DNA of 64,000 nucleotides, from contig NW_006766888.1 of assembly GCF_000275845.1 (NCBI RefSeq), positions 998,084 to 1,062,083 of the forward strand, read 5' to 3'. The notes under the pieces are model-generated. The model worked only from the letters and a program-made list of their open reading frames with translations, made no database searches and was not told the origin of the DNA. This stretch comes from Dichomitus squalens LYAD-421 SS1. Lineage: Eukaryota; Basidiomycota; Agaricomycetes; Polyporales; Polyporaceae. Below, in pieces: positions 20,723-23,611 of the stretch (position 1 is its first letter; each line of letters begins with the position of its first letter). The position numbers and the translations under genes were made by a program.

Positions 20723-23611
20723 ATGCACAGAGCTTCGGCGAGCGCACGCACACGCCCCGCGCTGCGGCGTCTCTCAACTGCACCCCTGTCTGGCAGCTCT
20801 CCGTCGAGGTCTCGTCCCCTGCTGGCGCGCTCGGAAGTCGCGGGGCCGACACACACGCCGCTGGTCGAGAAGACGTTGCCGGTGTACTTCCGGGACGACG
20901 TTCTGCGCGTGCACGGCTCGCGCCCCGCCCTGATCGCGCGGAAGGAGCAGCCCCGGCCGTTCGGGGGCCCGCGCGGGCGGAACCTCGGGGACGCGTCGCA
21001 CCTCGCATGGGACTTTGGGGAGTTCGATCGGCACATACAGGCCCTTGCGCGGGGCCTGTTGAGCATGGGCGTGAAGAAGGGAGATCGGGTGGGGGTGATC
21101 ATGGGGAACAACAGGTGCGTGGCGGGTGTCGAGCTGTTGTCGACGGCTGATGGATGTTGCGGAACAGTGCGTATGCGTGTTTGCAGTGGGCGTGTGCGAG
21201 CATAGGTGCCATACTTGTTACGCTGAACCCGGCCTATCGGCTGCCTGAGCTGGTGAGTGCATGACCGTATCTGTCTTTCAGGGATGCAAGTATATTCTAC
21301 TGCCCACAAGAGAACGCGACTTAGGCGCCGAAACGCCGCAACGTCCCCGTCGCAAACATATTTTCCTATGGGTCTCGCTGAAGGCGTGCGCCACAATATA
21401 GGACCTGAATGAATTTCCAACATCTGCCCTAAATCCTCTTCGGGCCTTCTCTATATACACTTCACCCTGCCCCTCGCCTGAACCACGGTAGCACAGGTCG
21501 AGGAAGAGCCATGTCACTGACGGCCTGAAACCCCGCAGGTGAACACCCTGAGCCTGGTCGGCGCGTCCCACCTCTTCGTCGTCCCGAGCGTCCGCACGTC
21601 CGCGTACGTCCGCATGCTCCGCGACGCGTTCCCCGCGCTCGCGAACTCGCACCCGGGGGACATCCAGGAGCCCGCGCTGCCCGCGCTGAAGAGCCTCGTC
21701 GTCGTCGACAACACGGGGGACATCGCCCGGTTCCGGCAGGAGATCGACGGGGTCCGGCCGGCGGTCGACCTCCGCGAGGTGCTCGTCTGGCGGGAGGACG
21801 GGGCGGAGCGGAGGGCGGTCGAGGAGCTCACGGCGGGCCTGGACAGGGAGGACGTCACAAACATGCAGTTCACCAGGTCTCGTCGACGCGTGCTCCGCTT
21901 TCTTTCTGGACGTGCTTATGCTGACGGCTCGGTCGGTGCAGCGGGACGACCGGGGCGCCCAAGGCGGTCGCTCTGACACACCGGAACCTGCTGAACAATG
22001 GCATCGACATCGGTCGTTGTATGCGTCTGACGGAGAAGGACGTCGTTTGTATGTTGCTACGGTCGCTCGGTTTTGGTGGATGGCACTAACGGCCGCATCT
22101 TGCTATTGCAGGCAACGCCCCGCCGCTGTTCCATTGCTTTGATAAGTCACCCTCAACTGGCTTTTCCATATGGTTCACCCTGGCTGACTGTACATGACGT
22201 CTATACGCCTTGTCCTAGGGAACCTCGCGGCGTGGACTCACGGGGCATGCATTGTATACCCCTCCGAGACATATGACCCACCATCGATCGTCGACGCCGT
22301 CACCGAGGAACGCTGCACTGCGCTGCATGGCGTCCCGACCCACTTCCTCGGGGTCCTGACGGAGGTGCAGAGGAGGCTAGACGAGGGCAAGACGGTCGAC
22401 GTTCGGAACCTCCGGTACGCGCATTACATCGCAGTTTGTGACCGGACGATTGCGTGAACACTGACTGCTCGCCGTGCCGCCGGCAGGACGGGCATCGCGG
22501 CAGGATCTCCGGTGCCGACAGACCTAATGAAGCAGCTCATCGAGAAGCTGAACCTGACGGAGCTGACTGTCGCGTACGGCATGAGTGAGTGCGCGCTCCC
22601 GCCACACTTCTCTCCTTCTTGCGAGCCGGCTCTGACCCTTCTTGCATCTTCTAGCGGAGACGAGGTGGGGCAGCCCTCGGCACTGGCTTCTAGTGCGGCC
22701 AACTGACGAGCCGTCCCCAGCCCGGTGACGTTCCAGAGCACGACGGACGACCCAGTGATTAAGCGCATCGAGACCGTGGGCAGGGTCATGCCGCACGTGC
22801 GGGCGAAGCTCGTCGATCCCGACGGGCAGGTCGTGCCCGTCGGCAAGCCCGGGGAGCTGCTCACCGCCGGGTACCCGCTGCAGAAGGGGTACTGGAACGA
22901 CCAGGAGCAGACGGACCGCGTCATGAAGCGGGACGCTGAGGGCACCCTGTGGATGCACACGGGCGACGAGGGGATCATGGACGAGGAGGGCTATCTCCGC
23001 AGTAAGTTGCGGTTCCGAGTTGACGTGGGACGCGACTAGAGGCTGACGCGCGTGGGGGGTGGACAGTCGTTGGCAGGATCAAGGACATCATCATTCGAGG
23101 GGGCGAAGTGAGTGCGCGTCGTACTGTTTCACCTGCGGATCTCTAATCGTCTGCCGGATGCCAGAACCTCTTCCCGGTACAGATCGAGAACGTGCTCACG
23201 GCACATCCGGAGATTCGTGAAGCTGCGGTGGTCGCGGTGCCTGACGCGAAATACGGCGAGGTCGTCGGAGCGTGGATCGTCAGGGAGGGGAGCTCGGGCA
23301 TCTCGAAGGAGCAGGTGAGGCGCGTCGTCGCGGAGGGCATGAACCCGCAGGTGCGTCGTATCTTGGACGGTGGCCGGTATCGTCGTGCGCTCATTTCGAT
23401 GCTCTCTGTGCCTGTCCCGGCTGCTCGCGTCTTTGTGTGTCGGATGCGCGATCAGAATGCGCCGGCGTGGGTATGGTTCGTGGGCGAAGACGGAACGCCC
23501 GAGGAGCTGCCGAAGACGGCGAGCGGGAAGGTGCAGAAGCACATCCTGCGGGGCTGGTCGAAGGAGCTGGCGGGGAAGGGCATTGGCGCGGTCGGGCGGG
23601 CCTCGTCGTGA
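20723..23611 (+). CDS. ACSF2-type medium-chain acyl-CoA synthetase, probably mitochondrial
   Basis: Activates fatty acids to acyl-CoA through an acyl-adenylate. Twelve exons: 20723-21114, 21168-21252, 21539-21876, 21942-22048, 22112-22141, 22207-22414, 22487-22584, 22655-22664, 22721-23001, 23067-23107, 23165-23350 and 23456-23611. They give 643 residues with all phases closed. Motifs: QFTSGTTGAPKAV (about 268-280), AYGMTETSPVTF, GYWNDQEQT, GDEGIMDEEGYL, IIIRGGE and PKTASGKVQK. The Arg/Ser/Ala-rich start suggests mitochondrial import. Two oddities: the fifth intron (22142-22206) lacks GT-AG ends and reads ATAAGT...AC, and exon 8 is a 10-nt microexon encoding part of TETS. Without both, the conserved sequence is lost. 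Intron 2 is unusually long at 286 bp. Confidence 0.92.

Follow-up and report, generated by a model that had tools for sequence, protein, structure and literature searches.

Intron 5 of an acyl-CoA synthetase gene in Dichomitus squalens starts with AT and ends with AC, and we are highly confident that it is a real type II AT-AC intron, excised by the ordinary U2 (major) spliceosome. Type II AT-AC introns are a known kind, some of them experimentally confirmed in polypores; what is new here is the depth and the number of AT-AC introns in a lineage reported to be without minor introns. The significance of intron 5 rests on its reading frame, its protein family and its conservation, since the sequence pattern alone is no better than chance. 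Its U2 type is assigned from its signals and from the literature; the machinery involved, the trap proposed below and the splicing in this strain are inferred.

The acyl-CoA synthetase gene and its AT-AC intron

The gene occupies positions 20723..23612 on the forward strand of the window, i.e., the whole 64,000-nt stretch of DNA analysed, which belongs to a genome of 40.3 Mb, and its 12 exons encode a protein of 643 amino acids with an AMP-binding and an AMP-binding_C domain. The product is a member of the AMP-binding acyl-CoA synthetases, as it matched PF00501 in Pfam with an E-value of 1.9e-78 and 264.4 bits against a curated cut-off of 29.9, and it also matched PF13193; in NCBIfam, the top model scored below its cut-off. 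It shows 99% identity at 100% coverage to a D. squalens acyl-CoA synthetase (P0001), with nine differences in 643 residues. A search of its own genome for paralogues using the protein of exons 4-9 returned three matches, all within the gene itself, and the window had no match in Rfam. We also looked for a contaminating fungal copy in bacterial and archaeal contigs, and regarded the three matches, all bacterial, as chance. According to the gene model, 10 of the 11 introns are of the GT-AG type, intron 5 being the exception. Exon 8 (22655-22664), which is flanked by two GT-AG introns, consists of just 10 nt (CGGAGACGAG).

Exon 5 (22112..22141, forward strand, 30 nt) ends with CATTGCTTTG and is followed by ATAAGT; intron 5 (22142..22206, forward strand, 65 nt) has the structure ATAAGT...CTGAC...TATAC with the 3' end GTCTATAC; and exon 6 (22207..22414, forward strand) starts with GCCTTGTC (GLVLG), a start also printed as GCCTTGTCC. 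The join of 22141 to 22207 yields VCNAPPLFHCFGLVLGNLAAWTHGA, in phase 1. Among the frame-keeping introns with a GT, GC, AT, CT or TT start and an AG or AC end, the one from the AT at 22142 to the AC at 22206 was the sole one to produce HCFGLVLGN, which bears out the join proposed in the initial annotation. The lack of a usable GT donor claimed there was borne out as well, since no GT-AG or GC-AG pair restored the protein among introns of at least 35 nt with starts at 22112-22180 and ends up to 22270. Aside from the AG at 22145, which belongs to the donor motif, the AG at 22217..22218 on the forward strand is the sole one between the donor and 22260. Splicing from the GT at 22146 to this AG loses the frame, retention of the intron introduces stop codons, and splicing from the AT at 22142 to the same AG stays in frame and deletes LVLG, the four residues foreseen by the annotation. 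Two of the four printed alignments to solved structures (those to a feruloyl-CoA synthetase and its near-duplicate entry) are free of gaps at the junction; in the other two, to FadD5, a gap of two residues follows shortly after it.

The 5' splice site (22142..22147, forward strand) matches ATRAGT with no mismatch and carries the G at +5 of a U2-type donor. The branch-point-like motif CTGAC (22184..22188, forward strand) has the A at position 22187; from there to the last base of the intron is 19 nt, where the initial annotation gave about 20 nt. Both the motif and its spacing are like those of the GT-AG introns of the same gene, nine of which contain YTRAY at 14-22 nt, none being found in the tenth.

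Conservation of the intron ends in Agaricomycetes

We considered 188 relatives drawn from the best 120 listed matches of each of three protein searches, two of which scored thousands more: 120 were obtained with the whole-protein query, 43 new ones with the part of the query containing read-through, which favours such models, and 25 new ones with a Ceratobasidium query. The junction motif is intact in 125 of the 188 listed relatives, whose models are compatible with either AT-AC or GT-AG DNA, and is not intact in the other 63, where the intron ends can be deduced from the amino acids of the gene models.

The donor side is readable in 27 of these 63 models, and all 27 have Asp directly after HC[FM]. 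As G|AT encodes Asp, while G|GT would encode Gly, this argues for an AT donor. The following residue is E in 16, K in 5, D in 2, N in 2, M in 1 and T in 1, which implies a purine at intron position 3, and the second one is S in 12, Y in 11, C in 3 and F in 1 (codons TNN, S being also possible as AGY). Judged from these residues, the donors would fit ATRNGT, with R at +3 and T at +6; the U12-type donor ATATCCTT would translate as D-I-L when read through. The D and N cases after the donor Asp are consistent with a false GT intron cut within ATRA|GT. The acceptor side is readable in 25 of the 63 models, with Arg before L[VI][LI]GN in all 25, which argues for C as the last intron base, since C|GC encodes Arg and an AG end would yield Gly. 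The residue preceding this Arg is I in 7, T in 5, L in 4, P in 4, S in 3 and A in 2; as every one of them is possible from an NYA codon, the acceptor end would read YAC, the evidence being weaker for P0088, P0108 and P0114, where this residue adjoins the false join. Neither end is visible in 25 of the 63 models. The first 120 listed matches, which were not selected by junction, alone give 11 of 11 on the donor side and 14 of 14 on the acceptor side; all these counts come from related species and are not independent events.

The donor-side readings fall into eight orders, namely, Polyporales (the window itself), Agaricales, Boletales, Thelephorales, Sistotremastrales, Gloeophyllales, Amylocorticiales and Cantharellales, while Hymenochaetales (P0075) and Russulales (P0108) contribute one acceptor-side reading each, the assignments being based on one species looked up per order. 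The simplest reading of these residues is that an old AT-AC intron was already present in the Agaricomycetes ancestor, the AT and/or AC ends being inferable in ten orders. Thus the comparison with related basidiomycetes that the annotation had suggested, on whether AT-AC or GT-AG is ancestral, favours AT-AC, as far as the ends can be read from protein models.

Further candidate AT-AC introns in the D. squalens genome

We scanned the genome for GATAAGT, GATATGT or GATGAGT followed by CTRAC and then YACG, which gave 26, 20 and 28 matches (some overlapping), respectively, versus 24, 18 and 32 for the reversed-pattern controls. Since the two sets of counts are about equal, the patterns alone are without power. 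The joined frames of all 46 matches of the first two patterns and of 22 of the 28 matches of the third were inspected, and protein motifs spotted by eye were put to the test afterwards. AT-AC joins led into known protein motifs at eight places, including the acyl-CoA synthetase gene. Alignments to solved structures are free of gaps at the junction for DNA polymerase delta (L055, KVR|GLFERG), which was found first, an Argonaute (L043, QSHS|GLLGTSRP), a serine carboxypeptidase (L034, GHM|VPHDKP), a thiolase (L025, HPL|GCTGARQ) and a PI4-kinase (L069, G000:C2:1528700-1529200, FDI|GPGG), the last having a one-residue gap four residues beyond the AT-AC junction, beside the following junction. The case of a second Argonaute (L068, QSHA|GLLGTSRP) rests on its likeness to the first. 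A GOST-like membrane protein (L049, NNR|RLAMFDELAQDE) is the weaker case, as its Pfam match is below the cut-off and stops at the junction; we take its downstream motif to be GOST-like.

No GT-AG or GC-AG pair restoring the same protein was found in the stretches searched for L034, L043, L049, L055, L025 and L068, and for L069 there was no frame-keeping alternative to the next exon. Read in this way, the genome appears to hold at least seven well-supported AT-AC introns, including intron 5, and one weaker, all eight being 58-71 nt long. The two Argonaute genes, located on different contigs, have the AT-AC intron at the same codon, with the donors ATAAGT and ATGAGT, which suggests that it predates the Argonaute duplication. 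Directly 3' of the PI4-kinase AT-AC intron is an 8-nt exon (GTCCTGGA), followed by a GT-AG intron.

Several other places were considered. A possible ATATGT...TAC intron, noted by eye, precedes a helicase-like exon (L063, G000:C38:252107-252173), where the upstream frame is short. A RecQ-like candidate (L026) was rejected, as it reads as a continuing exon, and the other zf-C4pol locus, presumably REV3, gave a single, unconvincing candidate by script when inspected by eye and by script. No other candidate AT-AC join was recognisable within the window. A codon-usage score for candidate introns placed the true intron at row 21 only, and was dropped in favour of frames judged by eye and alignment to solved structures.

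Gene models broken at the junction

Of the first 120 listed matches, 103 have a named source and 17 are unnamed (sources lgn and jgi). Among the named models, 66 of 103 keep the junction intact and 37 have it broken, versus 17 intact and none broken among the 17 unnamed ones (Fisher p 0.0014), and a further nine of nine unnamed sequences were intact in the second search, which favours read-throughs. For 13 of the 26 unnamed proteins, including 8 of the first 17, the longest contig exceeds the coding sequence by less than 350 nt. As this lacks room for the usual ten or so introns, these short-contig sequences are probably transcripts. Among the 103 named models, 27 carry an indel of at least three residues near the intron 5 junction and 10 near that of the neighbouring intron 4, compared with 0-3 for each of the other nine introns; with indels of any size, the numbers of models are 33, 14 and 0-13. 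The counts of 13 belong to introns 7 and 8, on either side of the 10-nt exon 8; an indel close to this exon is present in 13 of the 103.

Models from the same species also disagree. In Schizophyllum commune, P0059 and P0126 are intact, and P0137 and P0140 are broken at the junction; in Agrocybe pediades, P0057 is intact and P0090 is broken, the two being 97.8% alike elsewhere; and the 12 entries of Rhizoctonia solani comprise three with an intact junction, three with read-through and six that cannot be read there. The expectation that gene finders would break this gene holds for the 37 named public models above, but not for D. squalens itself, whose public model P0001 is correct.

Branch point, choice of the 3' end and proposed mechanism

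In all eight AT-AC introns, the A of CTRAC is 19-24 nt from the last intron base, and the AC used belongs to the first YAC whose end lies 7 nt or more beyond the branch A, which in intron 5 is the TAC at 22204..22206 on the forward strand. Nearer CAC or TAC triplets at +3 to +6 from the branch A are skipped in three of the eight, a GAC is passed over in three (acyl-CoA synthetase, at 22196-22198, polymerase delta and carboxypeptidase), and two introns bypass an AG at +6 or +7. The YAC end, the flanking Gs and the CTRAC are not independent evidence in the seven other introns, because the search pattern demanded them; the choice among the ACs is fixed by the protein. Choosing the first YAC is what a U2 spliceosome working with an A-first, C-last pair should do.

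We propose that U1 and U6 probably recognise TAAGT within the donor just as in GT introns, that U2 probably pairs with the CTGAC of intron 5, and that the first YAC suitably distant from the branch A then probably serves as the 3' end. The first and last nucleotides of an intron interact, and the AC end would be chosen because an A as the first base suits a C as the last base rather than a G. Both ends would then be needed together, and such an intron would tend to be trapped, since a single change to GT or to AG alone would weaken it, which fits the persistence of intron 5 across Agaricomycetes. In yeast, which has no minor spliceosome and where no standard intron normally uses AT-AC, AT-AC was second only to GT-AG in efficiency when an intron was mutated (PMC6726248, crediting Parker and Siliciano 1993). 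However, a strict two-ended trap is disfavoured by the 49 GT-AC and 21 AT-AG introns in the annotation of Ganoderma lingzhi (PMC11590231), because these, if real, mean mixed ends.

Alternative explanations

Could intron 5 instead be spliced from AT to AG, between 22142 and 22218, giving a protein four residues shorter? The frame would be kept, an AG is present, and AT-AG introns are among those listed for G. lingzhi, as mentioned above. However, we consider this very improbable, since the product HCFGNLA occurs in 0 of the 188 listed relatives versus 125 with the intact motif, none of the four printed structure alignments contains a four-residue gap at the junction, and the AT-AG combination has been termed disfavoured, there for U12-type introns (PMC3584512). 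A single base change would turn the donor into GTAAGT, so that a normal intron with a misread base, or a pseudogene, might also be imagined; this is the least credible of the readings, as the acceptor would still be without an AG preserving LVLG, the two unusual ends are seen again in other species, and the gene is otherwise intact in its frame and its other 10 introns. Homology-based gene modelling being common, the D and R residues of the relatives could be artefacts of copied models rather than features of their DNA, and in the three models with the false join next to the residue before R such an origin is easier to envisage. Nevertheless, there is little to commend this idea, since the read-through segments vary in sequence and length among species and models of the same species disagree at the junction.

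Excision of intron 5 by the minor spliceosome, as a U12-type AT-AC intron, seems hardly any more plausible. AT-AC ends do occur among U12 introns, but the donor of intron 5 has five mismatches in eight bases to RTATCCTT, and likewise to ATATCCTT, and its best match to the U12-type branch motif, TTCCTTRAC, has three mismatches, which supports the U2-type donor of the initial annotation. A genome-wide pattern of U12-type donor plus branch gave two matches versus three in the control. U6atac, U12, U4atac and U11 had no match in the genome, in searches that had no control match anywhere; U6 snRNA was found six times, all full-length and five with equal score (L002-L007 in G000). Cutaneotrichosporon oleaginosum is a basidiomycete. 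Minor snRNA genes were detected in this one fungus (PMC7072748), which is in favour of the U12-type reading and a point against total loss of minor splicing. On the other side, the branch A of intron 5 is 19 nt from the intron end, whereas the U12 optimum is 11-13 nt (PMC3584512), and minor introns were reported to be completely absent from Dikarya (PMC10639083) and to be lacking in Basidiomycota (PMC2846911), where the table represents basidiomycetes by Phakopsora pachyrhizi, with two 'other AT-AC' introns. The best reading of intron 5 is that of an AT-AC intron with a U2-type donor.

Relation to known AT-AC introns and possible origin

Among the nearest known counterparts are the AT-AC type II introns, such as intron 21 of human SCN4A, with the same ends, a G at +5 and major-spliceosome signals (PMC2831892); the D. 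squalens introns differ in being fungal and very short (58-71 nt), in residing in unrelated genes and in belonging to a lineage reported to be without minor introns. Among mushroom-forming fungi, 13 of about 92,000 introns in G. lingzhi are AT-AC, and Sanger sequencing confirmed one of them, located in a zf-C4pol gene (PMC11590231); 0.0235% of the introns in Coriolopsis trogii are AT-AC and 0.0248% GT-AC (PMC13395996). These are of similar rarity and experimentally supported, and the G. lingzhi zf-C4pol gene possibly corresponds to the D. squalens polymerase delta gene described above. In their available text, the two accounts, which also list GT-AC introns, name no acyl-CoA gene, conservation or spliceosome type. 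C. elegans likewise combines AT-AC introns, at least 42 of which were suspected to be real by manual inspection, with a seemingly missing minor spliceosome (U11, U12 and U4atac), but it is an animal, and conservation is not described in the available text of that report (PMC3033335). We found no account in the literature searched of a conserved Agaricomycetes set of AT-AC introns or of the acyl-CoA synthetase case, although the locus may stand in a supplementary table.

AT-AC introns of the U2 type have been proposed to be trapped former U12 introns (PMC2831892). It is conceivable, though in our judgement rather unlikely, that the Agaricomycetes AT-AC introns are relics of a former minor spliceosome, which outlived its loss in the Dikarya ancestor while their donors turned U2-type; the AT and AC would have been kept because leaving the AT-AC state needs two simultaneous changes. 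If so, the trapped relics would be a fossil record of minor-intron positions, fixed since before the mushroom orders split.

For annotation, the AT-AC intron is a concrete cause of wrong gene models, with 37 affected out of the 103 named acyl-CoA synthetase models examined. Two of the other AT-AC introns interrupt the motifs GHM|VP of the serine carboxypeptidase and HPL|GCTGAR of the thiolase, both of which we take to be at active sites, so that missing these introns would damage annotated active sites, as the motifs are cut through. If RNA agrees, the major spliceosome alone would have kept an AT-AC intron throughout the history of a fungal class, and the idea of trapped introns would become testable in a lineage without minor splicing.
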